The position numbers were made by a program, and so were the translations under genes. A stretch of 64,000 nt of DNA from Oricola nitratireducens (GTDB lineage: Bacteria > Pseudomonadota > Alphaproteobacteria > Rhizobiales > Rhizobiaceae), in NCBI RefSeq assembly GCF_014904745.1, contig NZ_JACZCS010000001.1, forward strand, positions 372,001-436,000. The letters are read 5' to 3'. The notes beneath the pieces were generated by a model. That model did not search any database and had not been told where the DNA came from. It saw only the letters and a program-made list of their open reading frames with translations. Every line of letters begins with the position of its first letter. The stretch's first letter is position 1. Shown here in pieces: positions 17,520-64,000 of the stretch.

Positions 17520-17533
17520 TTGACATGTATCAA
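17520..17533. promoter_or_regulatory. FNR/FixK-type anaerobox
   Basis: TTGAC-ATGT-ATCAA fits the TTGA-N6-TCAA core of FNR, FixK and FnrN sites. It lies inside a larger imperfect symmetry (CCCGAT ... ATCGGG, 17515-17541). The centre is about 90 bases before the start of the Gly-repeat protein, so activation from a -41.5 position would place transcription start near 17568. The intergenic location supports it; binding is inferred. Confidence 0.55.
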
Positions 17534-17616
17534 TGATCGGGAGGCGCTTCGCCGCTTGGATCGCGCAAGGGAGGAAGGGAATCGCCCCTGCCCCTACAGC
17601 GATCGAGGAGAAATTT

Positions 17617-45011: not shown

Positions 45012-45048
45012 CGCCGCTTTGAACCACGAATTTTGGAAAGACTGAACG

Positions 45049-46281: not shown

Positions 46282-46338
46282 TCGCAAGGCGGGTTGCCGG
46301 TCGCTGCCGGCCATCCGCCGACCCGATCCGGGAGACCA

Positions 46339-46986: not shown

Positions 46987-47074
46987 CCTGACGGCCGCGT
47001 ATACCAATTCGAGAAAAGGCGGGTCTGGATACAGCCGCACAAGCAGCAAGACCGCGTAAAAAAGGAAAAGTTCC

Positions 47075-48484: not shown

Positions 48485-48487
48485 TCT

Positions 48488-48518
48488 TTTCCGCATCGGC
48501 ATCGCGCCGTTGCGGAAA
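48488..48518. other. Long hairpin downstream of lpdA
   Basis: TTTCCGCA-T-CGGC ... GCCG-T-TGCGGAAA: two stacked stems of 8 and 4 bases with one T-T mismatch and a 5-base loop, starting just after the lpdA stop. There is no U-run on the plus strand (CGGGAACAATC follows), so it is either a Rho-assisted or processing structure or a symmetric protein site. Confidence 0.5.
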
Positions 48519-48610
48519 CGGGAACAATCTCTTCACGGTTTTTCCGTAGACGGAACGGCGTGGATGGTCGCATCGTGCCAGGAGCATGCGGCGAGAAGGG
48601 ACTTACCGAT

Positions 48611-49393
48611 TTGATCAATCTGTCTAAATTCAGCGGAACGCTTGGCGCGGGCGCGCTCGCGGCCGTCTTGTTGGCTACGCCGTCGCTTGCGGGCGATTCC
48701 CCGCCCGGCATCGAGTTCGAACTCGGCGGCGGCGGTGCGGTCGCGCCACGCTACGAGGGATCGTCCGACTATCTCCTCAGCCCCTATCCGACGTTTCGCC
48801 TGAAGCGGCTGACCTTCTCGAACGGTTTCCAGATCGGCGGCGGCGACGGGATGGGCCTGTCCTTCTATCCCTCGTTCGCCTATCGTGGCGCGCGCAAGGC
48901 CGCCGACACGCTGGCGCTGACCGGTCTTGCGGATGTCGACGCGGCCGTCGAACTCGGTCTTGGCGCGTCCTATACGACGCCCGGTTTCAGGGTCTTTTCC
49001 GAGATCCGCCGCGGGGTGACCGGACATGACGGATTTGTCGGGGAAATCGGCGCGGATCTCATCATGCGGCCGGCGGACAAGCTGACGCTGTCGGCGGGGC
49101 CGCGCGCATCGTTCGCCGACGGCGCCTATATGGACACCTATTTCAGCGTCACGGCTGCCGAAGCCGTTGCGTCCGGGCTGCCGCAGTTCGACGCCGGGCC
49201 GGGCTTCAAGTCCGTCGGCGCGGAGGCCAAGCTGCGGTACGACTTTGCGCCCAACTGGGCGGTGGAAAGTTCGGCCAGCTACAACCGCCTGATCGGGGAT
49301 GCCTCGAATTCGCCCGTGACGGGCATCGGCTCCCGCGATCAGTACGGCTTCCGGCTGGGTCTCGTGCGCAGTTTTCGGATCGACTTCCGGTAA
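48611..49393 (+). CDS. MipA/OmpV-family outer-membrane protein
   Basis: About 260 residues, with a signal peptide ending SLAGD and a beta-barrel pattern. Alternating hydrophobic strands include IEFELGGGGAVAPRYEGSSDYLLSPYPTF at the start, FYPSFAYRG, LGASYTTPGFRVFSEIRRGV, and a terminal Phe-containing strand (VRSFRIDFR). The opening GGGAVAPRYEGS and C-terminal strand are typical of MipA/OmpV scaffolding-type barrels. The start is uncertain: TTG 48611 gives a clean leader after AGAAGGG; GTG 48560 is in frame upstream. Confidence 0.8.
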   Translation: MINLSKFSGTLGAGALAAVLLATPSLAGDSPPGIEFELGGGGAVAPRYEGSSDYLLSPYPTFRLKRLTFSNGFQIGGGDGMGLSFYPSFAYRGARKAADTLALTGLADVDAAVELGLGASYTTPGFRVFSEIRRGVTGHDGFVGEIGADLIMRPADKLTLSAGPRASFADGAYMDTYFSVTAAEAVASGLPQFDAGPGFKSVGAEAKLRYDFAPNWAVESSASYNRLIGDASNSPVTGIGSRDQYGFRLGLVRSFRIDFR

Positions 49394-49415
49394 GCGCGCG
49401 AGTTCGCCAAAACCG

Positions 49416-49616
49416 TTATTGTTCGGGCGAGGCCGGGATGATGTCATCCGGCACGTCGATCGTCACGTTGACGTCGTTGCTGTCGGTGAAGGCACCCGAA
49501 TTATAGAGATAGAAGCCGCCGACCGCGAGCACGATCAGCAGAAGAATGGCGATGAACCAGCCGGCGCCGGTGCCGTTGGTGTAGACGACCCGGGTTTCAC
49601 GATCCTGCGTTGTCAT
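49416..49616 (-). CDS. Tiny single-pass membrane protein, unknown function
   Basis: 66 residues: a polar cytoplasmic N-terminus (TTQDRETRVVYTNGTG), one transmembrane helix at about 18-40 (AGWFIAILLLIVLAVGGFYLYN), and an acidic, Asp-rich periplasmic tail (VNVTIDVPDDIIPASPEQ). It has a strong AGGAG ribosome site. No family is recognised. Convergent with the MipA-like gene. Confidence 0.72.
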   Translation of the reverse strand: MTTQDRETRVVYTNGTGAGWFIAILLLIVLAVGGFYLYNSGAFTDSNDVNVTIDVPDDIIPASPEQ

Positions 49617-49699
49617 GTGTCATCTCCTGTTTGATTTCAGGGCGATAACGACGGGCGCCGCGAAGCGTTCCATCCTCTTTTTCGGCCATGACGAAACGA

Positions 49700-49730
49700 A
49701 AAAACCCGGCGTCTCAGAGGTACGCCGGGC
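49700..49730 (-). terminator. Intrinsic terminator for the minus-strand small-lipoprotein gene
   Basis: On the minus strand ACGCCGGG ... CCCGGCGT pairing is oriented so that CGCCGGG is followed by TTTTTT: arms at 49705-49712 and 49722-49729, with AAAAAA on the plus strand at 49699-49704. It lies about 30 bases past the stop of the 49759-49956 gene. Confidence 0.85.
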
Positions 49731-49758
49731 GTGAAGTTGTTTGGAGATCAGTCGGCGA

Positions 49759-49956
49759 TCAGGCTTTTTGCCACTCGTCGAGGTATTTAATGAGCCAAGC
49801 ATCGACCGGAATTTGCGCTACATCCATTGTCTTCAGCTTGGTGTAGTCGACCGGTGTTTTGCTTTCCGCCACGGTTTGATGAAAACCGCAGGCGGATGCG
49901 CCGGCGGTTACGAAGAGCGCGGCGGCAAGGCCAAGGGCCAGTGCTTTACAAGACAT
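49759..49956 (-). CDS. Small secreted protein or lipoprotein, unknown function
   Basis: 65 residues with a hydrophobic leader (CKALALGLAAALFVTAGASAC); ASAC could be a weak lipobox or the end of a signal peptide. The mature part is about 43 residues, ending IPVDAWLIKYLDEWQKA, amphipathic and Trp-containing. Strong AAAGGAGA ribosome site and own terminator support it as real. No family recognised. Confidence 0.7.
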   Translation of the reverse strand: MSCKALALGLAAALFVTAGASACGFHQTVAESKTPVDYTKLKTMDVAQIPVDAWLIKYLDEWQKA

Positions 49957-50059
49957 GCGCTTCTCCTTTTCCCTGGTCCGGATCCGGCCGGACAATTAAA
50001 AGTTAACGCAACGGCAAGATTTCGCCAAGGGCAAAGGTGATCACAAATTCGCGCGCGGA

Positions 50060-51145
50060 CTACTCGTAGACCGGCGTGACCGTGTAGCCGGCGTCGGCGA
50101 GAAGCTTTGCGAGGCCCTTGTCGCCGGGCAGGTGCAGCGCGCCGACGGCGATGAAGACGCCGCCGCCCTTGTCGAGCAGCGGCGTGGCGCGTTGCAGCAT
50201 GGTCCTGTTGCGCACATGGACCATTTTTTCCTCGAAGGCGGCGTAGCCGGCGGCGAGGTCCTCGTCGCTTTCCATCTCGGGCGTGACGGCGCGCAGCATC
50301 GGCCAGACCGCGCCGGTCCTGCCCTGCACATAGAGTTCGATCATCGTTTCTACGACGTCGTCGATCTTGTCGCCGAGCGCGATCGTGTCGATCAGGCCGC
50401 GGACATGGAATTCCATCGGCAGGGAGGCCATGGCGTCGAACTGCTCGACGATGGTTTCCAGGCCCTTCAGGTCCTTGCCCTCGCGCTGCGCATCCTGCGC
50501 CAGCTTGAGGTCGAGGAAGGACGCGCCGGCCTGCTTGCGGTCCATCTCGCATTTCGGCAGCGCAACCATGGCGGTGAGCAGCCAGGGCTTCATGCGGTCC
50601 ACAAGGGCGAGTTGCATGCCACGCTTGGCGAGTCCGTCCTTCAGAATGTCACGCTGTTCGGCGGTCAGGTAGTCCGACAGCGCCTTGCCGTCGGTGAACA
50701 TTGTCAGGTCGGGCTTGGAAAACAGCGCCATCTGCGCCTTGGCCGGGTCGAGAATCTCGGTCGATTCGATGGCGACGGTGTCCGCGCCCTCGAAGGCCTG
50801 TTTCGCCTTTACCGGAAGGTCGATGACGCGCTCGTCGGTCAGATGCATGGTTCCGAACAGCCAGGACGACGCGAGGCCCGGCTTGTCGATGCGGAACAGC
50901 AGCGTGTCGCCGTTGATCGTCGCGGCGGCCTCGTCCATCAACTTCCTGTAGCTTGCCGGGTCGTCGCGCTTCATTTGGTCGAGCACGTTTTCGCCGCGGC
51001 AGGTCTCGCCGGCGTGCGCGGGCAGCGATTGCATTGCCACGAAGAGCACGGCCAGAAAGCTCAGCGCGAACAGCGCGTTGGCAAGGCCAAGCGCGCCGAG
51101 AAGGGGGCCGGACAGGCGGTCCATACGGTCAAACAGGCGGTTCAT
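50060..51145 (-). CDS. TraB/GumN-family protein
   Basis: A 361-residue exported or membrane-anchored protein. Hydrophobic leader at about 20-42 (LANALFALSFLAVLFVAMQSLPAHAG). The TraB/GumN hallmarks are LFGTMHLTDE near the start of the domain and VFIAVGALHLPGDKGLAKLL near the C-terminus, with conserved His and Glu residues resembling a Tiki-type metallopeptidase fold. A glycan or pheromone role has been proposed for relatives; here function is unknown. Upstream of it on the same strand is xerC. Confidence 0.9.
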   Translation of the reverse strand: MNRLFDRMDRLSGPLLGALGLANALFALSFLAVLFVAMQSLPAHAGETCRGENVLDQMKRDDPASYRKLMDEAAATINGDTLLFRIDKPGLASSWLFGTMHLTDERVIDLPVKAKQAFEGADTVAIESTEILDPAKAQMALFSKPDLTMFTDGKALSDYLTAEQRDILKDGLAKRGMQLALVDRMKPWLLTAMVALPKCEMDRKQAGASFLDLKLAQDAQREGKDLKGLETIVEQFDAMASLPMEFHVRGLIDTIALGDKIDDVVETMIELYVQGRTGAVWPMLRAVTPEMESDEDLAAGYAAFEEKMVHVRNRTMLQRATPLLDKGGGVFIAVGALHLPGDKGLAKLLADAGYTVTPVYE

Positions 51146-51206
51146 CGCGCCAACCTCGCACAAAATGGCGACCATTCCGTTAAGAGCCTGCGCGAAATTG
51201 GGGCTT

Positions 51207-52154
51207 TCACGCGCGCGGATGGGCGTTCCGGTAGACGTCGAGCAGGCGGGCGGTGTCGACGCCGGTATAGACCTGCGTCGTCGACAGGCTGGCATGGCCG
51301 AGCAATTCCTGGATGGTGCGCAGATCGCCGCCGTTTCCGAGCAGGTGGGTGGCGAAGGAATGGCGCAGCGCATGCGGCGTCGCGGTTTCGGGGAGACCGA
51401 GCGCGCCGCGCAGCGCCCGCATGTCGCGCTGGAGGACGGCAGCCTGCAGAGGTCCGCCGCGCGCGCCGCGGAAGAGCGGCATATCGGCCGCAAGATCGTA
51501 GGGACAGAGGCGGCGGTAGAGATCGACGGCGTCGAAGACGACCGGCAGCAACGGCACAAGCCGTGTCTTGTTGCCCTTGCCGGTGACACGAAGCGCCTTG
51601 TCGCGGCGATCCTTCAGCGCGCCGCCGGAAAGCGCCAGCGCCTCGCCGATGCGCAGGCCACAGCCATAGAGCAGTGTCAGGACGGCGGCGTTGCGCGCCG
51701 CGATCCACGGCTCTCCGTTCAATTGTTCCGACGCGTCGACGACACGGCGCGCGTCGGCGGCGGTCAGCGGCTTGGGCAGCGATTTCGGCTGGCGCGGCGC
51801 GCGCAGGCTGGTCGCCGCCGCCGCATTGGCGAGGCCGTTGCGCTCCAGATGGCGCATGAAGGAGCGGATACCGGCCAGTCCGCGCCCGAGCGTGCGGGCG
51901 CCGGCGCCGGCGGCGCGGCGTTTGGTCAGGAAGGCGCGGAAATCGAGCGATTTCAGGTCGGCGACGTCGGCGATGCCGGGCGCGCCGCCGAGATGCGCTG
52001 TCAGAAAGGTGAGGAACTGGCGGGTGTCGCGCTCATAGGCTTCCAGCGTCTTCGGCGATAGGCGGCGCTCGCTCGACAATTGTTCCAGCCACGCGCTACG
52101 GGCGGCGGCGAGGTCGGGCTTTGCATTGACGAGGGGCGCATCGGTGTCGGGCAT
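51207..52154 (-). CDS. xerC: Site-specific tyrosine recombinase XerC
   Basis: A 315-residue recombinase that resolves chromosome dimers at dif with XerD. The N-terminal SAM-like domain includes LSPKTLEAYERDTRQF. The catalytic domain has Arg in GCGLRIGEALAL, Lys in VTGKGNKTR, HxxR in PHALRHSFATHLL, and LGHASLSTTQVYTGVD with the His and nucleophile Tyr. Chosen start ATG 52154; TTG 52175 is in frame upstream. Chromosomal context and complete motifs favour a housekeeping XerC over an integrase. Confidence 0.94.
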   Translation of the reverse strand: MPDTDAPLVNAKPDLAAARSAWLEQLSSERRLSPKTLEAYERDTRQFLTFLTAHLGGAPGIADVADLKSLDFRAFLTKRRAAGAGARTLGRGLAGIRSFMRHLERNGLANAAAATSLRAPRQPKSLPKPLTAADARRVVDASEQLNGEPWIAARNAAVLTLLYGCGLRIGEALALSGGALKDRRDKALRVTGKGNKTRLVPLLPVVFDAVDLYRRLCPYDLAADMPLFRGARGGPLQAAVLQRDMRALRGALGLPETATPHALRHSFATHLLGNGGDLRTIQELLGHASLSTTQVYTGVDTARLLDVYRNAHPRA

Positions 52155-52260
52155 GGCGCCATTATCGCCCGGCAATGGTTACCGGGCGATTGCTTGCATT
52201 GCCGCGCTTGGCGGAAGACCGAAAAGCCTGTATCGCGGACCATCTTTTTTGGAGTGGCGA

Positions 52261-52827
52261 ATGACAAAACCGGACAATCCGGTCCTGATGGGCGTGATCG
52301 GCGCGCCGCATGGCGTGCGCGGCGAGTTGCGCGTGAAGCCCTATACCGGCGATCCGCTGGCGCTTGGCGATTACGGCACGCTCTACGATGCGCAGGGCCG
52401 TGCCTTCGACGTGACCGACATAAGGCCGCAGAAGAATGTCGTCGTCGTCAGCTTCGAACAGGTGAAGGGCCGCACCGAAGCCGAGGCGCTGAACGGCGTC
52501 GAGCTGTTCGTCGACCGGAGCCAGCTGCCGGACGAGGAGCTGGACGAGGACGAGTTCTTCGTCGCCGATCTGGTCGGCCTCGCCGTCCATGACGAGGCCG
52601 GCGAGAAGACCGGAGAGGTGATCGCGGTGCATAATTTCGGCGCTGGCGACCTGCTGGAGATTGCACCGCTGACGCCCGGCGGCGGGCTGGCGCGCAAGCA
52701 GGCCTTCTTGGTCGAGTTCTCGCGCGAGACCGTGCCGGCGATCGATTTCGACGCCGGCAGGCTGACGCTGGTCCGCCCGGGCGAGATCGAGGCGCGCGGC
52801 CAAGAGGGCGGCGAGGAAGACGAATGA
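52261..52827 (+). CDS. rimM: 16S rRNA processing protein RimM
   Basis: A 188-residue ribosome-maturation factor that binds S19 on the 30S head. RimM N-domain: [27 protein letters not shown] barrel: [37 protein letters not shown], ending [20 protein letters not shown] 52261 follows TGGAG. The TGA overlaps the trmD ATG. rpsP, its usual upstream partner, is 20.6 kb away. Confidence 0.97.
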
Positions 52828-53507
52828 GCTTCAAGGCGACGGTGCTGACGCTTTATCCGGAGATGTTTCCGGGCACGCTCGGGCAGGCGCTCGCCGGCAA
52901 GGCGCTGGCGCGTGGCGACTGGGCGCTCGATGCCGTGCAGATCCGCGATTACGCGACCGACAGGCACCGCAGCGTTGACGACACGCCGGCGGGCGGCGGC
53001 GCCGGCATGGTGATGCGCGCCGACATCGTCGCCGCGGCGCTCGACGCCAGTGTGGAGGAAGACGATCCGCGTCCGCGCCTCCTGATGAGTCCGCGCGGCA
53101 AACCGCTGACGCAGGCCCGTGTCCGCGATCTGGCGGCAGGTCCCGGCGCGGTCATCGTCTGCGGCCGTTTCGAGGGTGTCGACCAGCGCGTCATCGAAGG
53201 ACGGAACCTCGAGGAGGTCTCGATCGGCGATTACGTGCTGTCGGGCGGTGAACTCGCCGCGCAGGTCGTGCTCGACGCGATTATCCGACTGCTGCCGGGC
53301 GTCATGGGTAACGCGGAATCCGGCGAGACGGAGAGCTTCGAGGGCAATCTCCTCGAACATCCGCACTACACCCGCCCCGCTGAATGGGAAGGCCGCACCA
53401 TCCCCGAGGTGCTGACCTCCGGCAATCACGCGAAGATCGACGAGTGGCGGCGCGAGCAGGCGGAGAAGCTGACGAAGGAGCGGCGGCCGGACTTGCTTGG
53501 CGAGTGA
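52824..53507 (+). CDS. trmD: tRNA (guanine37-N1)-methyltransferase TrmD
   Basis: A 227-residue SPOUT methyltransferase that makes m1G37, preventing frameshifts. Knot segments are [12 protein letters not shown]-like at the start, [29 protein letters not shown] and [30 protein letters not shown]. Start overlaps rimM (ATGA). Followed, after a minus-strand permease gene, by rplS. Confidence 0.98.
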
Positions 53508-53525
53508 TCCTTGCTGTCCGGCACG

Positions 53526-54269
53526 TCACTTCGCGAAGTAATACCAGCTCAGCAATAGCCCGACGGCGATCACCGCCATGCGGACGACGGATTGAGGCAC
53601 CCTCTTGGCCATCCAGACCCCGGCATAGCCGCCGAGCGCGCCGGCCGGGATCATGATCGCGGCGGGAAGCCAGGCCACAACGCCGCCGCCGGAAAAGACG
53701 AGGATTGCCATGGCGGCGATCAGCACGGCGACGAAATTCTTGATCGCGTTCAACCGGTGATAGTCGCCGCCCTTCGAAAGGCCGAGCACCGCCAGCATCA
53801 TGATGCCCATGCCGGCCCCGAAGAACCCGCCATAGACCGAGGTCGCGAACTGTGCCGCGAGCCCGGCCGGCCCCATCCGGTGATCGGGGCCGAGATGTTT
53901 CGGCTTCAGCCACGGCCCGGCGGCGAACAGGACTGTAGCTCCGAGCAGCAGCCACGGCACGATCTGCCGGAAAGTCGGGTTCGACAGCGAAAGCAGGATC
54001 AGCGCTCCGCCCAGGCCGCCGACCAGCGAGAGCCCGCCAATCGTCAAGGCCTCCCGCAGGTCGTTGCGGATTTCCTGGCGGTAGGCCAGCGCCGATGTCA
54101 CATAACCCGGGAACTGGGTCACGGACGAGGTCGCGTTGGCGACGATCGGCGGCAGGCCGACCAGCGTCATCGCGCCAAAGGTGAGGAACGTGCCGCCGCC
54201 GGCAATGGCATTGACGGCGCTGGCCAGGAAACCGGCAGCAAACAGCAAAAGGGAATCGAAAAAAGTCAT
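53526..54269 (-). CDS. TauE/SafE-family sulfite/sulfonate exporter-like permease
   Basis: A membrane protein of about 247 residues with seven or eight helices. N-terminal LLLFAAGFLASAVNAIAGGGTFLTFGAMTLVGLPPIVANATSS is the TauE/SafE signature, and the second half repeats it with YGGFFGAGMGIMMLAVLGL and AMAILVFSGGGVVAW. Family members move sulfite, sulfoacetate or other small anions. ATG 54269 is chosen, ATG 54281 is equally possible, neither having a clear ribosome site. It lies antisense between trmD and rplS. Confidence 0.92.
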   Translation of the reverse strand: MTFFDSLLLFAAGFLASAVNAIAGGGTFLTFGAMTLVGLPPIVANATSSVTQFPGYVTSALAYRQEIRNDLREALTIGGLSLVGGLGGALILLSLSNPTFRQIVPWLLLGATVLFAAGPWLKPKHLGPDHRMGPAGLAAQFATSVYGGFFGAGMGIMMLAVLGLSKGGDYHRLNAIKNFVAVLIAAMAILVFSGGGVVAWLPAAIMIPAGALGGYAGVWMAKRVPQSVVRMAVIAVGLLLSWYYFAK

Positions 54270-54563
54270 GGGGCCCAACATGTCGGGCCGAACGCCCCGC
54301 TACGGGCTAGCCGATCGGACGGTGCGCGCGCAAGAGAGGCGGCGTCGCGGTCTCGCGTGATCGTCCGAAAAATCGGCTTCGGGAGGTGACAAACGCTGCT
54401 TTCTCATGTATGCCCGCGCGGAATTCGGGCGAAAAGTCCTGATCTCAACAGCAAATACGATCTCGTGAATACGCTCCGGCCTGATGGCCAGGCATGACGG
54501 TCCTTGCACTTTCTGCCCTCTAAGAGCGCTCTGGCGGTTCAAAAGAACAAGAGGAATATCAAC

Positions 54564-55097
54564 ATGACGGACATCATCCGCCAGCTCGAAATCGAGCAAG
54601 CCGCCAAGATTCTCGAAAAGCGCACCTTCCCGGATTTCTCGCCCGGCGACACCGTCCGCGTCCAGGTCCGCGTCACGGAAGGCAAGCGTACGCGTCTGCA
54701 GGCCTATGAGGGCGTCTGCATCGCGCGCTCCGGCGCCGGCTTCAACGAGAACTTCACCGTGCGCAAGCTTTCCTACGGCGAAGGCGTGGAACGCGTGTTC
54801 CCGATGTTTTCGCCGATGGTCGAGGCCGTCGAGATCGTCCGCCGCGGCAAGGTCCGGCGCGCGAAGCTCTATTACATGCGCGGCCTGACGGGCAAAAAGG
54901 CCCGTATCGTCGAGAATACGAATGCCCGTTCGCGCAAGCTGAACGACGAAGAGCGCCAGAAGATGCTCGACGAGAAGGCGCGTCTGGAGGCCGAGAAGGT
55001 CGCCGCGGCGCAGGCACTCGCCGCCGAGAAGGCGGCCGAGGAAGCGGCGGAAGCCGCAAAGGCCGCCGCAGCGGAAGCGCCGGCAGATAACGCATAA
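54564..55097 (+). CDS. rplS: 50S ribosomal protein L19 with Ala/Glu/Lys-rich C-terminal extension
   Basis: A 177-residue L19. The conserved part runs from [31 protein letters not shown] to [17 protein letters not shown] (about 125 residues). The remaining 50 are low-complexity, rich in Ala, Glu and Lys, similar in style to the S16 tail. ATG 54564 has GAGGAA. A terminator follows. Confidence 0.97.
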
Positions 55098-55424
55098 AGC
55101 TTTTCTGCGTCTCGCAGGGATCGAAAGGCGGGTCTTTGGCCCGCCTTTTTTGCTTATGAATACTCCGATGAGCTGGCGATTACATCGCCTCGGTAAGTGC
55201 GCTGCCTCCTGAACTAGGCGCTTCGAAGCGCTGGATAACGGTCACCTCGCTATCGACATAATTTAATGATCGATTTGACGCGCCGAAATAAGTCTCTTCT
55301 ACCTGACATGCGTGACTCCGCGTCATTTTTGGCGGGGTTGGGTCAGTCGCGTCAGCTTCATCACGGTCTGCTACCGCAGCGGTATTATGAATGCGGTGCG
55401 TAGCGGGCCAAAGGCGGTCCAACA
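55098..55424 (+). other. Intergenic region between rplS and the cytochrome operon
   Basis: 327 bases with the rplS terminator at its left end and, further on, the presumed promoter of the cytochrome operon. It is less GC-rich than the genes around it. A 14-base palindrome (GCGCTTCGAAGCGC, 55218-55231) and a possible -35 TTGACG at 55275-55280 are visible, but no convincing -10. A minus-strand frame (55180-55425) has no ribosome site or family support. Confidence 0.6.
55124..55152 (+). terminator. Intrinsic terminator of rplS
   Basis: AAAGGCGGG-TCTTTGG-CCCGCCTTTTTTG: a 9-base stem with T-run, 27 bases after the rplS stop. Confidence 0.93.
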
Positions 55425-55613
55425 ATGGAAAATCTTGCGATCATCAAACAGCCAGCCGTCGCCCATGTGGCGTTCGGCTGGTTCAATCTTGCATGGCCCA
55501 ACATCGCCTTCTGGGTCGCGGTGATCATCCTATTCTTCATCTTCGCCTGGGCCCGCATCCCGTTTTTCATGGAGGCGGATGCCCGGTCCCGCGAGCACCG
55601 AGCAGACAAATGA
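55425..55613 (+). CDS. Small single-helix membrane protein, first gene of the b6-like cytochrome operon
   Basis: 62 residues: N-terminal 25 with several aromatic residues (AFGWFNLAWPN), one transmembrane helix at about 27-43, and a charged cytoplasmic tail (RIPFFMEADARSREHRADK). It resembles in size and shape the small accessory subunits of membrane redox complexes, but I recognise no family. Start ATG 55425 with AAAGGCGG upstream. Its TGA overlaps the start of the cytochrome gene (ATGA), so the proteins are likely made in step and may form one complex. Confidence 0.78.
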   Translation: MENLAIIKQPAVAHVAFGWFNLAWPNIAFWVAVIILFFIFAWARIPFFMEADARSREHRADK

Positions 55614-56233
55614 GCATCGACCAAAGGCTTCAGTCCTACCTGAAACGCAATCTGACGCTCGAAGATGCTTTGCCGACGAAAATGCCGGCTTACGTGAATT
55701 CGTTTGGCTATTTCTTCGGTACCATAACCTTGGCGGCGCTGGCGATGCTGTTCATGACAGGTATCTGGATGTCGATCTTCGGCCCGGCCTGGCGGCATGA
55801 GTCGTCCCTGGGGGCCTTCGTCAACGCTATGCATTTTTGGGCGGTCGAAGTGTTCTACCTCGCCGCTATCCTTCACATCCTGTTCAAGTTCTTTACCGCG
55901 GCCTGGCGCGACGGACGCTGGCGGACCTGGCTAGTCGGGTGGTTGATCTTTGCGGCCAGCATCTTTTCGGGAATCAGCGGCACGCTGCTGCAGCAGAACT
56001 GGGATTCCCAGTGGAACGCCCAGCAGGGCAAGGACGCCTTCGCCGCGCTCGGTCTCGGCTGGCTCAACTGGAACGACTATGCCAGTTTGCTGACGTTGCA
56101 TATTGCCGTCTTTGCGCTGATGGTGGCGTTGCTCGCCGCGGCGCATCTCTTCCTGATCCGCCGCGAGGGACCGGTGCGTCCGATCGTCGATGGCGGTCAG
56201 GTCCGCATCGAGAATGAGGAGAGTGCGCGATGA
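55610..56233 (+). CDS. Cytochrome b6-like diheme membrane protein (cytochrome b N-terminal domain)
   Basis: 207 residues with four helices (about 32-56, 73-96, 107-127, 158-183). Heme-ligand candidates are His75 and His89 in helix B (14 apart) and His164 and His179 in helix D (15 apart). The 15 spacing is that of cytochrome b6, not mitochondrial-type cytochrome b (14). MPAYVNSFGYFFGTIT, SGTLLQQNWD and LHIAVFALMVALLAAAHLFLIRREG align by eye with b6. There is no cysteine, so the covalent heme c-i site of b6 is absent. It is split from the C-terminal half, which is the next gene. Quinone oxidation or reduction in the membrane is expected; the partner is unknown. Confidence 0.88.
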   Translation: MSIDQRLQSYLKRNLTLEDALPTKMPAYVNSFGYFFGTITLAALAMLFMTGIWMSIFGPAWRHESSLGAFVNAMHFWAVEVFYLAAILHILFKFFTAAWRDGRWRTWLVGWLIFAASIFSGISGTLLQQNWDSQWNAQQGKDAFAALGLGWLNWNDYASLLTLHIAVFALMVALLAAAHLFLIRREGPVRPIVDGGQVRIENEESAR

Positions 56234-57258
56234 GCGCGCTTTCCGACAAATATATGCGCGGCATTCCTATGAAGCCGTACGACATGATCCGCGAAGGACT
56301 GTTTATCCTCGCCGGAGTAGCCATTGTCGTCATCCTGCTCTCGGCGGTCTGGGGCTTTCCCCGAATCCCGCCGCTGACGTTGAAGCAGGTCGCCATCACC
56401 GCGCCCGTGGCCTTCACCGAGCGTACGCTGTCCTATTTCGACGGGCAGTCCGGGCTGCAGACTTATGGCCCGCCCTATACCGGCGACCGTGAGAATGCCC
56501 AGCGGGTCGGGCCGATCTGCCCAGCATGCTGGACGGGCGTTGCGCATCCGACCGACTTCCGTCAGGCGTTGGTGATCAATCCGCTCAAGAGCGCGGCCGT
56601 GTTGAACCCGGACATCGCCACCGCGCTTGACAGCTATGACAAGGCCACGCCCGCGCAGCAAAAGGCCTGGACCGACGCCTATGGCGCCGCGCTCGGCAAG
56701 GCGACGGCGAAGGATGGCAAGTTGATCCTGGCGACGGGTGACTACGGTCCGGTACCGACGCTGATGAACGGGATGCTGAAGCTCGCCCAGGCCGGCCTGC
56801 TGGAAGGGGCGCTGGTCCAGGGCGCGAATCCGAACTACGCTCCCTACAACACCGACTTCACGCTTCCACTCTATTATCTGGGCGGCGACCGGATCATGGG
56901 CACCGTCGCCGACCACTTCGACGAGCAGGGCGGCCAATGGGGTATGTCGCATGTCGCAGGACCCTATCCGGGTGCGTGGTGGCTGTGGCCTTACGCTTTC
57001 CTCTATCAGATCCCTGCGATCGGCAATGCCGACGCCGCCGACCTGATCGCGGGAATGATCATAGCGGCTTTCGGACTGATCCTGTTCTTCCTGCCGTTCG
57101 TGCCCGGGCTGAATCGGTTGCCCTATATCATCCCGGTCTACCGGCTTATCTGGCGTGACTGGTATGCCAAATACCCTTCTGGCGATCCGACGCGGGACCC
57201 GGCCAACTCAGGCTTCGATTCAGACCGAGGGCAATTTCCGTCAACTAAACCAGGCTGA
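56230..57258 (+). CDS. Subunit-IV-like membrane protein with large CPAC-containing loop
   Basis: 342 residues. One helix at about 22-42, then a loop of about 200 residues, presumably periplasmic, containing CPAC at 97-100 and His106, and a second helix at about 271-290. The end, PGAWWLWPYAFLYQIP (247-262) through LILFFLPFVPGLNRLPYIIPVYRLIW, follows the PEWYFYPVFQILRTVP-to-end pattern of subunit IV / cytochrome b C-terminal domain. The PEWY Glu is missing, however (PGAW). CPAC is not a heme c site because the next residue is Trp. ATG overlaps the b6-like stop (ATGA). The function is unknown; membership in a complex with the two previous products is inferred. Confidence 0.8.
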   Translation: MSALSDKYMRGIPMKPYDMIREGLFILAGVAIVVILLSAVWGFPRIPPLTLKQVAITAPVAFTERTLSYFDGQSGLQTYGPPYTGDRENAQRVGPICPACWTGVAHPTDFRQALVINPLKSAAVLNPDIATALDSYDKATPAQQKAWTDAYGAALGKATAKDGKLILATGDYGPVPTLMNGMLKLAQAGLLEGALVQGANPNYAPYNTDFTLPLYYLGGDRIMGTVADHFDEQGGQWGMSHVAGPYPGAWWLWPYAFLYQIPAIGNADAADLIAGMIIAAFGLILFFLPFVPGLNRLPYIIPVYRLIWRDWYAKYPSGDPTRDPANSGFDSDRGQFPSTKPG

Positions 57259-57314
57259 GCGGATCACGACGCATAGCAGGTTCTCTTGTCCCGAGCGGAT
57301 CATGTCTTGATCCG
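57257..57314. promoter_or_regulatory. Repeated half-sites upstream of the amino-acid binding-protein gene
   Basis: CGGATCA-TGTCT-TGATCCG (57296-57314) is a perfect 7-base inverted repeat. The half GAGCGGATCA occurs again about 36 bases upstream, at the end of the cytochrome operon. A dimeric regulator site 70 bases before the binding-protein start is plausible. Confidence 0.5.
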
Positions 57315-57384
57315 ACGGCAAATTTGCTGCCACTCTCGGGAAATGTCCGGCGGGCGGTCTTCGTCGAACAAAAAGGAGGCTTTC

Positions 57385-58182
57385 ATGATTTCGCGACGTT
57401 TCGTTCTCGGCGCGTGCGCCACTCTCGTTCTTTCATCCGTTGCCGCATCCGCGCAGGATCTGCCCGATCTCGCCGGCCGCAAGGTGGTGGTGGTCACCGA
57501 AAACGCCTATCCGCCGCTGCAGTTCATCGATCCGAAGACCGGCGACCAGATCGGATGGGAATATGACGCGGTGAACGAGATCGCCAAGCGGCTGAATTTC
57601 GCCGTTGAGTACCAGAACACCTCCTGGGACGCGATGATCCAGGCCGTATCCGACGGGCAGTACGACATCGGCATGACCGGTATCACCATCAATGACGAAC
57701 GCAAGCAAAAGGTCGATTTCTCCGATCCCTATATGCGCTCGGAACAATTCATGCTGGTGCGCGGCGACGAAAACCGGTTCACCGACGCGAAGAGTTTCGC
57801 CGCCGACGAAAATCTGCTGATTGGCGCGCAGCCGGGCACGACGCCGTTCTATACCGCCGTCTATGACGTGCTGGACGGCAATGAGCAGAATCCGCGCATC
57901 AAGCTGTTCGAGACCTTCGGCGCCACCGTGCAGGCGCTGAAGACCGGCGACGTGGACATGGTGCTGACCGACGGCACCGCCGGCAAGGGCTATGTCGCGG
58001 CTTCGGACGGCGGCCTGAAACTGATCGGCGATCCGCTCGGCTCGGAGGATTTCGGCTTCATCTTTCCGAAGGGTTCCGATCTCGTCGCGCCGGTTAATGC
58101 GGCAATCGCCGCGCTGAAAGCCGACGGAACGATCGACGCGCTGAACAAGAAATGGTTCCTGGACTACAAGTTCGGCGAATAG
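57385..58182 (+). CDS. Amino-acid ABC transporter periplasmic binding protein
   Basis: 265 residues, family 3 solute-binding protein. Signal peptide MISRRFVLGACATLVLSSVAASA (1-23). Typical segments are VVVVTENAYPPLQFIDPKTGDQIGWEYDAVNEIAKRL, SDGQYDIGMTGITINDERKQKVDFSDPYM, IGAQPGTTPFY and the C-terminal DGTIDALNKKWF. It captures polar or charged amino acids; exact specificity is not readable. ATG 57385 has AAGGAGG. Followed by its permease. Confidence 0.94.
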   Translation: MISRRFVLGACATLVLSSVAASAQDLPDLAGRKVVVVTENAYPPLQFIDPKTGDQIGWEYDAVNEIAKRLNFAVEYQNTSWDAMIQAVSDGQYDIGMTGITINDERKQKVDFSDPYMRSEQFMLVRGDENRFTDAKSFAADENLLIGAQPGTTPFYTAVYDVLDGNEQNPRIKLFETFGATVQALKTGDVDMVLTDGTAGKGYVAASDGGLKLIGDPLGSEDFGFIFPKGSDLVAPVNAAIAALKADGTIDALNKKWFLDYKFGE

Positions 58183-58249
58183 TTCCGGATGTCACCAATG
58201 ACCATGCCTCGCGCCGTCGAGACAGCCGGCGGCGCGCGGGAGGGCGGCC

Positions 58250-59065
58250 TTGGCGTCTGACGGCCGCAACGGCGAGAACGATTTTCCCTGGTGGCTGGTG
58301 ACGCTCGGTGTCATCGGCGTGACCCTGGCCGTGGTGATCGCGGCGAACGATCTCTACACGCAGGTCTTCGTCACCGTCGCCAAGGGCGTGCGGATCACCA
58401 TTTTCGTGACGCTTGTCGGTTTCGCGTTCGCCTCGGCGTTCGGCCTGTTGATCGCCTTGATGGGGCTTTCGGGATCGCTGGTCCTGCGCCAGATCTCGCG
58501 CTTCTATGTCGAGGTGATCCGTGGCGTGCCGATTCTGGTGCTCTTGTTCTACATCGCCTTCGTCGGCGCGCCCGGCCTCGTCTGGCTGATCAATTTCGTC
58601 ACCCAGCCGCTGCAGGCGGCGGGCATCATGGGCGAAATGCTGGTACGCGACCTCTCTCTTCTGTGGCGCGCTGTCCTGGCGTTGACCATCGGTTATTCGG
58701 CCTTCATCGCGGAGGTATTCCGGGCAGGCATTCTCGCTGTCGACGAGGGCCAGATCGAGGCCGCCGAGGCGCTCGGCCTGAACCGCTGGCAGCGCTTCCG
58801 GCTGATCGTCTTTCCGCAGGCGGTCCGCACCATCTTGCCGCCGCTCGGCAACGACTTCGTCGCCATGGTCAAGGATTCCTCGCTGGTCTCGGTTCTCGGC
58901 GTCGCCGACATCACCCAGATGGGCAAGGTCTATGCGGCGGGATCCTTCCGCTTCTTTGAAACCTATTCCATCGTCGCCTATATCTACCTTATCCTGACGA
59001 TCGGGCTTTCGATCGGGCTGCGGCGGCTGGAAAAGCGCATGCGCCGTGCCGAGGAGCGCGGCTGA
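58250..59065 (+). CDS. Amino-acid ABC transporter permease (HisM/GlnP type)
   Basis: 271 residues with five or six helices. The EAA loop reads AEALGLNRWQRFRLIVFPQAVRTILPPLGNDFVAMVKDSSLV. The first helices carry FYVEVIRGVPILVLLFYIAF. It probably forms a homodimer pore for the binding protein 67 bases upstream. Start TTG 58250 with GGGAGGG upstream; no ATG fits. No ATPase gene follows, so the ATP-binding subunit must be encoded elsewhere. Confidence 0.93.
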   Translation: MASDGRNGENDFPWWLVTLGVIGVTLAVVIAANDLYTQVFVTVAKGVRITIFVTLVGFAFASAFGLLIALMGLSGSLVLRQISRFYVEVIRGVPILVLLFYIAFVGAPGLVWLINFVTQPLQAAGIMGEMLVRDLSLLWRAVLALTIGYSAFIAEVFRAGILAVDEGQIEAAEALGLNRWQRFRLIVFPQAVRTILPPLGNDFVAMVKDSSLVSVLGVADITQMGKVYAAGSFRFFETYSIVAYIYLILTIGLSIGLRRLEKRMRRAEERG

Positions 59066-59166
59066 CCGCGCCGCGCGCAGGTCACGCTTTCGCCGCCTTT
59101 TGACTATGTGTCGGCGGAACACTATCTGACCGACGACATAACCCGACCGTCCATTTGGAGACCGAC

Positions 59167-59442
59167 ATGCGCAAACTCGTCCTGATCGCCCTCGCGCTTT
59201 TCATCGCTGCGCCGGCCGCCGCGGGCGACGGCACCAGCAGGGGTGGCGCGCGGCTGAACGCCATTACCTCCGGCCGTCTCTATGACCGCATTCTCACGCC
59301 GCAGCTCAATCCGAGCTTTTCGCTGGACCAGCGCGCCGAGGAGCAGCTTTTCGACGACGTTCGCGCCGGGCGCACCAATCTCAATGTCGTGCCTGAAGAG
59401 CAGCGCCGCTATTTCGAGTTGCAGATGGACATGGGCCGGTAG
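59167..59442 (+). CDS. Small secreted protein, unknown function
   Basis: 91 residues with a clear signal peptide (MRKLVLIALALFIAAPAAAG, 1-20) and a charged mature part without Cys (NAITSGRLYDRILTPQLNPSFSLDQRAEEQLFDDVRAGRTNLNVVP). ATG 59167 has TGGAG 6 bases upstream. I do not recognise the family. It could be co-transcribed with the ABC genes, 101 bases upstream. Confidence 0.72.
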   Translation: MRKLVLIALALFIAAPAAAGDGTSRGGARLNAITSGRLYDRILTPQLNPSFSLDQRAEEQLFDDVRAGRTNLNVVPEEQRRYFELQMDMGR

Positions 59443-59688
59443 AGGCCGGTCGGGAGGCGCGTCGCCAGATTGCCCATGACCGGGAAAGTTGGTAAGAGCG
59501 CGCCGTGAGGAAGAATTTCGGACATATGGAATGCGAGGCATTCGTTCTGCAGGACAGAAAACGCCTGCCTTCGCGCTTTCATGCCCGCGTCGCGGTGTCG
59601 GCGCTGAACCGACTTCTCTGAGCATCATCCGCTCCCGGCCTTGAGCCGGTTCCGCCAATTTCGACAGCTTATCACGGACACCAGGACA

Positions 59689-61095
59689 ATGACCGCACCC
59701 CGTACCCTCTACGACAAGATCTGGGACGACCATATGGTCGACACCGCCGAGGACGGCACATCGCTGCTCTATATCGACCGCCACCTCGTGCACGAGGTGA
59801 CGAGCCCGCAGGCCTTCGAGGGCCTGCGCATGGCGCACCGGCAGGTGCATGCCCCGCAAAAGACTCTGGCCGTCGTCGATCACAACGTGCCGACGACCCC
59901 GGACAGGGTCGAGGGCATCAAGAACGAGGAGAGCCGTATCCAGGTCGAGGCGCTGGCGAAAAACGCCGCCGATTTCGGCGTGGAATACTATTCCGAGAAG
60001 GACAAGCGCCAGGGCATCGTGCACATCGTCGGGCCCGAACAGGGTTTCACCCTGCCGGGCATGACCATCGTCTGCGGGGACAGCCACACCTCGACGCATG
60101 GCGCCTTCGGCGCGCTGGCGCACGGCATCGGCACGTCGGAGGTCGAGCATGTGCTCGCCACCCAGACGCTGATCCAGAGGAAGGCCAAGAACATGCTCGT
60201 CCAGGTGGACGGCAAACTGCCGGACGGCGTGACGGCGAAGGATATCATTCTCGCCATCATCGGTCATATTGGCACGGCGGGCGGCACCGGCTACGTGATC
60301 GAATTCGCAGGCGAGGCGATCCGCGCTCTGTCGATGGAAGGCCGCATGACGGTCTGCAACATGACCATCGAGGGCGGAGCGCGCGCCGGCCTGATCGCGC
60401 CGGACGAAACGACCTTCGAATATATCAAGGACAAGCCGCGCGCGCCCAAGGGCGAGGCCTGGGACATGGCGCTCGAATACTGGAAGACGCTGAAGAGCGA
60501 CGAGGGCGCGCATTTCGACAAGGTGGTCACTCTCGACGCCGCCAATTTGCCGCCGATCGTCACCTGGGGTTCCTCGCCGGAGGATGTCGTCTCCATCGAG
60601 GGCGTGGTGCCGAACCCGGACGATATCGAGGATGCCAACAAGCGCGCCTCGAAATGGCGTGCGCTGGAATATATGGGCCTGAAACCGGGCACCAGGATGA
60701 CCGACATCGCGATCGACCGGGTCTTCATCGGCTCCTGCACCAATGGCCGTATCGAGGATTTGCGCGAAGTGGCGAAGATCGTCGAGGGCAAGAAAGTCGC
60801 GCCGACCGTCAGCGCCATGATCGTGCCGGGCTCAGGCCTGGTGAAGGAACAGGCCGAGAAGGAAGGCCTCGACAAGATCTTCCTGGAAGCCGGTTTTGAA
60901 TGGCGCGAGCCGGGCTGTTCGATGTGCCTCGCGATGAACGACGACCGATTGGCGCCGGGCGAACGCTGCGCGTCGACCTCGAACCGCAATTTCGAGGGCC
61001 GCCAGGGCTTTAAGGGCCGCACGCATCTGGTCTCGCCGGCGATGGCCGCGGCCGCCGCGATCGCAGGCCACTTTGTGGACGTGCGCAAGCTCTAA
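59689..61095 (+). CDS. leuC: 3-isopropylmalate dehydratase large subunit
   Basis: 468 residues, aconitase family; with LeuD it isomerises 2- to 3-isopropylmalate for leucine. Fe-S cysteines are in FIGSCTNGR and [11 protein letters not shown]. The [31 protein letters not shown] segment is diagnostic. ATG 59689 has CCAGGACA upstream and the conserved [12 protein letters not shown] follows. leuD is not in the window. Confidence 0.98.
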
Positions 61096-61120
61096 CATAT
61101 TGCGATACCAACTGAATCAG

Positions 61121-61145
61121 CGGCGCCTTCGGGCGCCGTTTTCGG
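61121..61145 (+). terminator. Intrinsic terminator of leuC
   Basis: CGGCGCC-TTCG-GGCGCCG then TTTTC: a perfect 7-base stem with a UUCG loop, 26 bases past the leuC stop. Confidence 0.88.
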
Positions 61146-61146
61146 T

Positions 61147-62094
61147 TCAGCCGGGTACCATGTGGTGCAGCACATATAGCCAGACGGAGACCGTGGCAAC
61201 GGCGAGCGTCGTCGCCAGCAGGAAGGCCGAGGCCGCGAGGCTGACCGCGCGGTCGTACATCACCGCGAAGACGTAGATGTTCATGCCGGGCGGCATCGCC
61301 GCCAACAGCGTCGCGGCGCGCACCATGTCGGGTGGCAGGTCGAAGACGAAATGCGACAGCGTGAACGCGATCAGCGGATGCAGCAGCAGCGACAGTGCCG
61401 CCACCATGCCGCTTTCGGCGAGATCGGCGCGCATCCGGTAGCGCGTCATCGCCGCGCCGATGCCGACGAGGGCCACCGGAATGGCCGCCGAAGCGATCAT
61501 GTCGACTGCCGCCATGACCGGTTCGGGCAGGCTGAAGCCCGACAGGTTGAGCGCCGCGCCGGCGAGGATGCCGATCATCAGCGGATTGACGACGATCGAG
61601 CGCCCGGCGACGGCAAATGTCTCGGAAAGTTTGCGGCCGTCGCGGCGCATCAGTTCCATGGTGACGATGCCGACGGCGTAAAGAACCGGCGCGTGGAAGG
61701 CGATGATGCCGAAGGCGGGCGTCAGCGGCGCGGTTCCGAAGGAGCGTTCGACAATGGCGACGCCGAGCAGGACCGAATTCGAAAACGTCGCGGAAAAACC
61801 GACGGCGACCGCCTCGCCGGGCCTGCGGCTAAAGACCTGGCGCGCCAGGAGAATGCCGACCGCGAAACAGACGAATGCGCCGGTATAAAAACTGACCAGC
61901 ATCGGCACCGAGAAGGCGCCGTGGAAATCGAGCCGCGCGAGCGCGCGAAACAGCAGTACCGGCACGGCGAGCTTCACCGCGAAACCGTTGAGCGCGTCGG
62001 CGATGGAAGCCGGCAGGTAGCCGGACCGCACCGCGCCCCAGCCGGTGGCTATGAGCAGGAAGACCGGTGCGACGGTGACGAGAATGGTGAGCAT
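61147..62094 (-). CDS. AEC-family (auxin efflux carrier-like) transporter
   Basis: 315 residues with about ten helices. LPASIADALNGFAVKLAVPVLLFRALARLDF near the N-terminus and NPLMIGILAGAALNLSGFSLPEPVMAAVDMIASAAIPVALVGIGAAM in the middle follow the AEC duplication pattern with the central PxxL-type crossover. Members export malate or other organic anions or auxin-like compounds; the substrate here is unknown. ATG 62094 is preceded by GGAG; a GTG lies directly before it. Confidence 0.93.
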   Translation of the reverse strand: MLTILVTVAPVFLLIATGWGAVRSGYLPASIADALNGFAVKLAVPVLLFRALARLDFHGAFSVPMLVSFYTGAFVCFAVGILLARQVFSRRPGEAVAVGFSATFSNSVLLGVAIVERSFGTAPLTPAFGIIAFHAPVLYAVGIVTMELMRRDGRKLSETFAVAGRSIVVNPLMIGILAGAALNLSGFSLPEPVMAAVDMIASAAIPVALVGIGAAMTRYRMRADLAESGMVAALSLLLHPLIAFTLSHFVFDLPPDMVRAATLLAAMPPGMNIYVFAVMYDRAVSLAASAFLLATTLAVATVSVWLYVLHHMVPG

Positions 62095-62308
62095 CACTCC
62101 GCTTTAGAGCGGATTTTGCGGTTGCGGAAGTGGATCGGACCGATTCATCGGCTTTCGAGCGTTCGTGCGTGCGCGAGGCCTGTTTCGGGAAAATTACGCG
62201 GCGCGGGAAAATCGGCCGGGCGGATTAACCTGAAATCAAACTCGTGCGTCTATCGTCCGCGCCAATGCATCACCGGCATTCTGCCGGGGAACGAAACAAG
62301 GTGCGGCG

Positions 62309-63493
62309 GTGCAAGGGCAATCCCTTTTCCAACTGATCAGTCCATTGATCTTTCTGGTGTTTTCAGTCGGTTTTACCGTCCTGTGGCACTATGCGCGCGA
62401 TGTTAGAGCGCTGCAGTTCTTCGCGCTGTCATATTTCCTGGGCGCATGCGCCTTCGTGGGGGATTTCCTGCGCCCGCTGATGTCGCCGGTCGTCGAGATC
62501 TATGCCACCAGCCCCTTCTATATCAGCATGGCCCTGTTCTTTTGCGGTGCGACATTCCTGTTCTATCGCGGCCGGGCGCCCTGGAAGGCACTCTGGCTGA
62601 CAGGCGCGGCAATGTTGGCGCTTGTCAGCTGGTATCGCTTCGGCAAGGACGACATCGTCGCCCGCACGGTAGTGATGCATGCCGGTGTCTTCGCGATGAT
62701 GGTGTATACCGCGTTTTCCCTTCACCGCGACATGACCCGGAGGATCGACCGGGTTCTACAGGCGATCATCGTCATGAGCGCGATACAACTCGTCTGTCGC
62801 GGCGCTTTTATCGTATTTTTCGAAGGCCCGTCGCTGACGCAGGCGAATTATCCGAATTCGGTGTTGGCGTTGTTGGTGCATTTTTCGGTTTCGATCGTCG
62901 CGCTGGCGCTTGCGTTTAGCCTGTTCGTCATTTTCAGCATGGAAATCGTGACCCGGCTGACCCGGACCAGCGAAACCGATCCGCTGACCGGCGTTCTCAA
63001 CCGGCGCGGTTTCGACAGCCGTATCGCGGCGCTTTACGAAGGCCCGAGCGTCGAGGGTCACTGCCATGCGGTCGTCATGGCGGACATCGACCATTTCAAA
63101 TCGGTCAACGACCGCCATGGCCACGATGCCGGCGATGCGATCCTGTCGCGATTCGCCCGCATTCTCCAGGGGGCGGCGCGCGACAGCGATTTCGTCGTGC
63201 GCTGGGGCGGCGAGGAATTCATGATCGTTATCACCAATTCCGATGTCGCCGGCGGCCGGCTCTATGCGGAAACGGTGCGCGCGGTGTTCGAATCGCAGCG
63301 GCACGAGCGTCTCGGCGGCGACAGCGTCACGGCGAGTTTCGGCATCGCCGAGTGGCGGCAGGGCCAAAAGATATCCGAGGTCGGCCGCCTTGCCGATTTG
63401 GCGCTGTACCGCGCCAAGCGGGAAGGCCGGAACCGTGTCTGCATCCATCGGTCGGGCGTTCACGAGCACGGCGACGAATGGGCAGTCGCCTAG
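62309..63493 (+). CDS. Membrane-anchored GGDEF diguanylate cyclase
   Basis: 394 residues. The N-terminal 215 or so form six to seven helices (LFQLISPLIFLVFSVGFTVLW ... LVHFSVSIVALALAFSLFVIFSM) with no recognised sensor name. The GGDEF domain follows: DPLTGVLNRRGFD, DIDHFKSVNDRHGHDAGDAIL, active site GGEEF in RWGGEEFM, and a complete inhibitory site RDSD exactly five residues before GGEEF. It should make c-di-GMP with product inhibition; no EAL domain. GTG 62309 with AAGG upstream. Confidence 0.95.
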   Translation: MQGQSLFQLISPLIFLVFSVGFTVLWHYARDVRALQFFALSYFLGACAFVGDFLRPLMSPVVEIYATSPFYISMALFFCGATFLFYRGRAPWKALWLTGAAMLALVSWYRFGKDDIVARTVVMHAGVFAMMVYTAFSLHRDMTRRIDRVLQAIIVMSAIQLVCRGAFIVFFEGPSLTQANYPNSVLALLVHFSVSIVALALAFSLFVIFSMEIVTRLTRTSETDPLTGVLNRRGFDSRIAALYEGPSVEGHCHAVVMADIDHFKSVNDRHGHDAGDAILSRFARILQGAARDSDFVVRWGGEEFMIVITNSDVAGGRLYAETVRAVFESQRHERLGGDSVTASFGIAEWRQGQKISEVGRLADLALYRAKREGRNRVCIHRSGVHEHGDEWAVA

Positions 63494-63532
63494 CGGCTTG
63501 TCCGTTACATTTGCCAAGCGTATCACCGAATC

Positions 63533-63850
63533 ATGACAAAGTTCCGTACCCTGTTTCCGCTTGTTTTTACTGCCGTTCTCGCGGGGTGCGTTGGCCCGGG
63601 CTCCCAGGTTTCCACAAGCTCTCCCGTCCGCCAGGCCAGTTACCGGTGTTCCCACGACGCGACGCTGTCGGTCACCCGTTCGGGTTCGAGCGCGAGCGTC
63701 GTCGACAGCCGCGGCTTCGAAACGACCATGCCGGCCAGCCCGGCGGGCCAGTCGACGCGCTATTCGGAGGGTATTTACGCGCTGATTCTCGAAGGCCGTG
63801 ACGCGACATGGTTCGTGTCGGGCGAGGTTCCCCTCGAATGCCGCCGGTGA
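63533..63850 (+). CDS. Lipoprotein with MliC-like lysozyme-inhibitor fold (tentative)
   Basis: 105 residues. Lipobox LAGC at residues 16-19 (after FTAVLAGC). The mature domain starts ASYRCSHDATLSVTRSGSSASV and has MPASPAGQSTRYSEGIYALILEGRDATWFV, ending PLECRR. One Cys near each end and the central MPASxxGxxxRYS block resemble the C-type lysozyme inhibitors MliC/YdhA. A role in protecting peptidoglycan from lysozyme is inferred. Confidence 0.8.
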   Translation: MTKFRTLFPLVFTAVLAGCVGPGSQVSTSSPVRQASYRCSHDATLSVTRSGSSASVVDSRGFETTMPASPAGQSTRYSEGIYALILEGRDATWFVSGEVPLECRR

Positions 63851-64000
63851 GCGGTTTCGCTTTCCAAATCAGGCATTTGAAAAAGACCGGTGCAGTTTTT
63901 CGGGATCGAGCGACATTCCAATCGATTGAATATCGGGTGCGGTGTTGCATTGCACCCAAATCCCATTAAGGGAAGACGGTGAAGCCGGTGCGATCCTTTG

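Follow-up and report, generated by a model that had tools for sequence, protein, structure and literature searches.

To our knowledge, no well-studied b6/subunit IV core operates without a Rieske protein. Can such a core be conserved without one, and what would it then do? The question is raised by three overlapping genes in a 64,000-nucleotide stretch of the Oricola nitratireducens genome (the window, to which bare coordinates refer), which a sequence-only reading had described as a Rieske-free, split cytochrome b6-like operon, perhaps a quinone-linked complex with a new partner. In the literature searched by title or start of abstract, where subscription papers are sparsely covered, no such trio was described among the matches listed, and the portions of PMC6148476 and PMC5216662 that were available hold nothing on one.

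Gene layout and the b6-like protein

The trio lies on the plus strand and comprises a gene for a 62-aa one-helix protein (55425–55613), a gene for a 207-aa b6-like diheme cytochrome b (55610–56233) and a gene for a 342-aa two-helix protein, tentatively subunit-IV-like by gene order and an N-terminal motif (56230–57258). Both junctions are ATGA overlaps (spacing −4 and −4). This layout agrees with what had been read from the letters, and it is not a product of chance, since seven copies keep the same order with low dN/dS. A terminator-like hairpin with a 12-pair stem and a T tail (55123–55149, plus strand) follows the upstream gene rplS, and an amino-acid-type ABC transporter lies downstream, which makes a separate transcription unit probable for the trio. 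Shuffled sequences would give 2.6 terminator-like sites where the region has 4, so that the hairpin stands out by its stem strength only. GC3 of the three genes (0.75–0.78) is below that of the nine other window genes measured (0.80–0.89), and 37 of 622 same-length stretches of the window have a GC content as low as that of the trio or lower. Elsewhere in the window, a TauE/SafE family membrane protein (PF01925; 53526–54281, minus strand) is encoded upstream of the trio with rplS in between, and a frame at 17533–18420 carries a glycine-rich repeat (GGGNGGGGNGG) within its first hundred residues.

The b6-like protein retains His75/His89 and His164/His179 in all seven aligned copies, which would provide two bis-His b haem sites with spacings of 14 and 14–15 residues. 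Helices A and C each bear a glycine pair with a spacing of 14 (Gly37/51 and Gly110/124), likewise in 7/7 copies, and His63 is invariant. The protein matches the Pfam family PF13631 (Cytochrom_B_N_2) with 39.6 bits, above the curated cut-off of 27. Searched with a four-sequence profile, it matches cytochrome b and b6 chains in the PDB (best E 1.5e-11), and in hhalign it aligns with the N-domains of a pair of bc1 cytochromes b (E 4.7e-9). Two NCBIfam cut-offs are not reached, that of ExtP (NF040969, 44 bits vs 290; E 2.2e-11, the best NCBIfam E-value of this protein) and that of cytochrome b6 (NF002990, 43.2 bits vs 325), and hydropathy resolves four hydrophobic regions in only three of the seven rows. 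The diheme, b6-like character proposed for the second gene product is well supported at the level of sequence, and we take the gene to encode a real b6-type cytochrome b. It is also the only one of the three proteins that fits a known family: the small and third proteins have no Pfam or NCBIfam match above cut-off, and a search of PDB sequences gave no relative of the third.

With its four haem-ligand histidines (spacing 14 and 15), its glycine pairs 14 apart and the separation of the b6 part from a C-terminal part, the trio resembles the cytochrome b6 (PF13631; NF002990) found in b6f complexes and in split menaquinol:cytochrome c complexes; unlike these systems, it has no linked Rieske gene and scores far below the NF002990 cut-off. 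The cd loop is part of the Rieske docking face, and the arginine before the first haem histidine has a role at the haem. Two bc1 cytochromes b served as the reference for both features. Counted from the second helix-C glycine, the first helix-D histidine comes 40–41 residues later in all seven copies, vs 52 in both references, and the cd loop is thus 11–12 residues shorter. Three residues before His75, all seven copies have Asn where both references have Arg. Because the haem-binding features are present and several Rieske-side features are not, we file the trio as a variant rather than as a bc or b6f complex.

The third and small proteins

Hydropathy finds one hydrophobic region in the small protein, as expected of the single-helix protein that had been proposed, and a homologue is encoded in each of the seven aligned copies. 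For the third protein, the earlier description as subunit-IV-like with a loop of about 200 residues stands in part: two hydrophobic regions are found in 7/7 copies, and ~205 residues separate the first of them from a PGAWW motif in the protein of the window, but the label itself is only plausible, with weak N-terminal support. Like subunit IV or the C-terminal domain of cytochrome b, which we take PF00032 to represent, the protein directly follows b6 and carries an IPxxPYD segment before its first helix. The match of this segment to the IPFHPYY-type stretch that precedes helix E of cytochrome b is weak; hhalign against the cytochrome b C-domain gives E 0.0063 but a probability of only 6%, and 8 and 22 of 300 block shuffles aligned as well.

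Subunit IV usually has three helices, and PEWY is a Qo-type motif expected in it. The third protein, by contrast, has two predicted hydrophobic regions, a ~200-residue insert and no Pfam match, and it shows P[GA]AWW in 7/7 copies where PEWY might lie (the alignment there falls short of significance), PEWY itself being absent. The two bc1 cytochromes b used for comparison have PEWY in one case and PVWY in the other. Homology of the C-terminal part to the PEWY region was considered and dropped (151 and 242 of 300 shuffles as good), and none of four members of the third-protein family matched subunit IV. Gene order and the N-terminus suggest that the protein may be subunit-IV-like, at least in its N-terminal part.

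His241 of the third protein is invariant across the aligned copies. A CxxC motif (97–100 in the window) is present in 6/7 copies and missing from the Bacteroidales copy, where both cysteines were lost together. The loop of the window's protein contains 17 acidic and 14 basic residues. Since the loop is slightly acidic and both flanking ends are slightly basic, it may lie in the periplasm, although this charge pattern places it only weakly. How the third protein folds, on which side of the membrane its loop lies and whether the seven-helix assembly considered below forms are all predictions from hydropathy.

Conservation, distribution and transfer

When the b6 sequence alone was scanned against 84,980 species genomes, 22 stretches showed a pattern match, and three of these encode relatives: L016 (Pseudomonadota MAG), L017 (Acidihalobacter MAG) and L018 (Bacteroidales MAG). 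In each of them the trio is complete and its gene order unchanged. Within the order of the Acidihalobacter MAG, two of five genomes were positive with two copies each, and a search of that order added three complete trios (L021, L022 and L023); one genome, G899, is inferred to be Acidihalobacter-like from its place in the order and its similarity to L017. Seven trio copies from five genomes could thus be aligned, with identical gene order, after exclusion of duplicate loci (L009, L015, L019, L020 and L024) from the counts. An eighth match, weak and fragmentary (G1152, a Bacteroidia genome; E 4.7e-4), contains two internal stops; we regard it as spurious and left it out of the alignment. Identity to the window across the aligned copies is 53–76% for b6, 43–74% for the third protein and 34–68% for the small protein. 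For four pairs (window/L016, L017/L021, L022/L023 and L017/L023), dN/dS was 0.04–0.22 in 11 of 12 gene comparisons and the twelfth was saturated, all ratios being rough because dS was near or above 1 throughout; the small gene gave ~0.2 against L016.

Other targeted searches returned no carrier beyond these. The third protein was found in 0/5 other genomes of the window's genus and 0/384 of its class, in 1/250 genomes of the order of G889 and 1/5 of the family of G891 (in each case the carrier itself), in 2/390 of the class of G891 (a spurious fragment besides the carrier) and in 2/364 of the class of G890 (both known carriers). At E 1e-6, the b6 protein was found in none of 397 other genomes of the phylum. 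At E 1e-3, the family to which the window belongs (151 genomes, 150 besides G000) gave three weak, distant b matches (E 1.7e-4 to 1e-3, 24–30% identity), which we did not count as trios. Viral contigs contained no relative, and plasmids none of the third protein. Five plasmid records, all of Actinomycetota, encode distant b proteins (26–29% identical); in the two regions read out of five the neighbors differ, and we rejected them as trio members. Pseudarthrobacter and Streptomyces plasmids (L037 and L038) encode distant cytochrome b N-terminal proteins of ~370 aa with no Rieske annotated within the 14 kb shown, and the Streptomyces protein adjoins heavy-metal P-type ATPases. The trio is rare and patchy in the genomes searched. 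Its true spread is probably larger, because a single-sequence scan of the collection reaches only close relatives.

Between the window's genome (G000) and the carrier G889, the trio b6 proteins are 78% and the third proteins 75% identical, vs 41% for the bc1 cytochromes b and 36% for the bc1 Rieske proteins. Because the trio proteins are so much more alike than the bc1 proteins of the same genomes, the trio appears to move horizontally, and it seems to do so as a self-contained unit. Between the window and G890, TypA is 56% and trio b6 63–64% identical. Among the window (45–64 kb), L016, L018, L026 and L027, no gene beyond the trio was shared (ORFs of at least 80 aa, E 1e-10). The Bacteroidales trio adjoins a type 9 secretion system (T9SS) plug protein on a contig that is really Bacteroidota, and its GC matches that contig; for both reasons it is not likely to be a contaminating fragment.

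Rieske and cytochrome c genes of the carriers

A motif scan of ORFs of at least 60 aa found no Rieske gene near any of the seven copies; it covered positions 45,000–64,000 of the window (19 kb), L016 (only ~0.4 kb visible upstream, at a contig end), L017, L018 and L025–L027. No convincing gene for a c-type cytochrome was found near the copies either, a single CxxCH frame of 64 aa in L026 being probably spurious. In the Bacteroidales MAG (G891; 3.7 Mb, possibly incomplete), a genome-wide search that was positive in 10 of 14 controls gave no Rieske match. Conservation of the trio without Rieske and convincing cytochrome c genes nearby, which the sequence-only reading had proposed as a test, is thus seen in the seven aligned copies. 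The term Rieske-free holds for the operon and not yet for the complex, because unlinked PetA-type Rieske genes occur in G000 and in one Acidihalobacter MAG.

G000 has eight Rieske matches, of which four were read; the other four have frames of 406–538 aa. An ordinary bc1 operon on another contig (L030) holds a Rieske/cytochrome b pair with a c1-like frame. One Rieske gene sits beside an arsenite oxidase large subunit (L035), one match is NirD-like by eye (L044), and one is an orphan of PetA type (L036:4677–5713, contig C24) next to a c-type cytochrome. The cluster around this orphan is of a copper-resistance type, with copper-type P-ATPases and a multicopper oxidase (both named by eye); no cytochrome b was seen in the 10 kb read around it, and it is a possible unlinked partner of the trio. 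The arsenite oxidase large subunit (L035:2434–4902, contig C41) reaches 1152 bits for TIGR02693 against a cut-off of 359, so the host may oxidize arsenite and need not be a plain heterotroph.

The Acidihalobacter MAG G890, which has two trios, gave four Rieske matches. Two look by eye like small ferredoxins and two are orphan PetA-type genes (L041:8045–8665 and L042:3126–3707), 70% identical to each other and both above the TIGR01416 cut-off. In the 12 kb inspected by motif and eye for each, no cytochrome b was recognized, the contig ending ~3 kb off one side; a 471-aa frame with CxxCH lies 3.5 kb from the Rieske gene of L041. One of the two orphans sits a few kb after a rusticyanin-like gene (named by eye). 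G889 gave six matches, three of them with frames of 368–520 aa; the three others, which were read, lie beside a bc1-type cytochrome b, lie near a molybdopterin-type enzyme (by eye) or are ferredoxin-like (by eye), and no orphan PetA type was seen among them. In sum, the trio has no linked Rieske, one carrier seems to be without any, and two carriers hold orphans that might serve it.

These orphans bear on the possibility that the trio is the membrane core of a divergent, functional b6f- or bc-like complex on which an orphan PetA-type Rieske docks, with the acceptor encoded elsewhere. G890 has as many orphan PetA-type genes as trios and the 471-aa CxxCH frame near one of them, and the orphan of G000 is accompanied by a cytochrome c in its copper cluster. 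G891, on the other hand, has no Rieske match, and no orphan PetA type appeared among the G889 matches read. That G890 shows no linked Rieske/cytochrome b pair may reflect incompleteness, with petABC simply absent from the MAG, because PMC10654088, in the part available, reports counterparts of the rus and pet operons in Acidihalobacter (the pet gene order is given there only for Acidithiobacillus and Acidiferrobacter). The shortened cd loop, the missing PEWY and the insert also argue against normal Rieske docking, and we consider such a complex unlikely, if still worth weighing.

Neighboring genes and a sulfur hint

Further shared genes occur only between L017 and L025, both from Acidihalobacter-like genomes; the other copies have unrelated neighbors, which weakens the neighborhood as a guide to function. 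Beside both of these trios lies a CysB-family regulator; with 423.7 and 401.2 bits, the two proteins stay short of the cut-off of 436. The two also share a histidine kinase, another frame (92% identical) and, next to the trio, a protein of 179–194 aa without a Pfam or NCBIfam family (L017:7234–7818 and L025:8355–8894, 47% identical). A rhodanese gene was found near the trio in L017 only. The CysB-type regulator is the only hint at a substrate and would fit sulfur chemistry.

A thiol- or sulfur-linked quinone reductase, in which a p-side CxxC dithiol replaces the Rieske cluster and electrons pass from a sulfur compound via haem to quinone, would accommodate this regulator at two copies, the rhodanese at one, the TauE/SafE-type gene that precedes rplS in the window, and a CxxC that is kept in six of seven copies and whose cysteines disappear together in the seventh. 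That seventh, Bacteroidales copy nevertheless lacks the motif, the rhodanese is confined to one copy, TauE proteins carry many substrates, and no thiol-oxidoreductase domain emerged from the Pfam and NCBIfam searches, so that we regard this mechanism as improbable. A degenerate b6/subunit IV remnant without redox function, persisting as a membrane scaffold or decaying after transfer, would suit the rare, patchy distribution and the missing PEWY, but it is more improbable still, given haem ligands kept in 7/7 copies down to 53% b6 identity, low dN/dS with preserved gene order, and two copies in each of two genomes.

Proposed function and relation to known systems

With moderate confidence, we propose that the trio is a small integral-membrane quinone redox module, derived from the b6/subunit IV core that Rieske/cytochrome b complexes contain and working without a Rieske protein. 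The b6, third and small proteins would form a seven-helix unit (4+2+1), in which the two b haems would relay electrons through the membrane, linking a quinone site close to the cytoplasmic side with a second site at the periplasmic face. The ~200-residue domain of the third protein would sit at that periplasmic face, where the Rieske head normally docks. There it might hold the partner that gives or takes electrons, be it a small molecule or a redox protein whose gene lies elsewhere, or it might close the site. The complex would then be a plain transmembrane quinone oxidoreductase and would not run a Q cycle in which electrons are split toward a Rieske cluster. As to direction, our guess is that a reduced periplasmic compound would be oxidized and its electrons passed to quinone. 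The shorter cd loop, Asn in place of Arg, P[GA]AWW and the large, presumably p-side insert make the Rieske-facing side look remodelled. The idea of a quinone-linked complex with a new partner is partly supported: the trio is conserved and has no linked Rieske, but G000 also holds an ordinary bc1 set, and unlinked PetA-type Rieske genes occur in G000 and G890. More tentatively, and less likely than not, the trio may represent a horizontally mobile class of cytochrome b complex in which a rebuilt subunit IV has, with its periplasmic domain, replaced the entire Rieske/cytochrome c arm and the ancient diheme b6 core acts by itself as a quinone-linked enzyme of the membrane.

Three known systems are comparable in part. 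ExtP of the Geobacter ext cluster (NF040969) is also a small cytochrome b, and that cluster also has a membrane protein, ExtQ; unlike the trio, it encodes a Rieske protein (ExtO) and several c-type cytochromes, according to the part of PMC5877670 available. An Acidithiobacillus cytochrome b/b6 gene adjoins the gene of the high-potential iron-sulfur protein Iro, as the accessible part of PMC10654088 describes, and this iro-cytb/b6 cluster resembles the trio, by description rather than by sequence comparison, in that a cytochrome b/b6 has a non-Rieske partner. No Iro-type gene was recognized by eye beside the trios. Superoxide oxidase has its electron donor on the periplasmic side. This enzyme, a cytochrome b561, passes electrons to quinone without a Rieske protein (PMC11869295, seen in part). 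The likeness is one of working principle only, as the trio, unlike b561, consists of a b6-family protein with two extra subunits and gave no b561-type family match.

If the proposed quinone redox module is real, a diheme b module can be adapted to a different partner, a significance that would rest on the conserved core without a linked Rieske, the altered docking face and the one carrier that gave no Rieske match. Two new protein families would then be added, those of the third and the one-helix protein, and the trio would offer a compact three-gene system that could be moved to a laboratory host.
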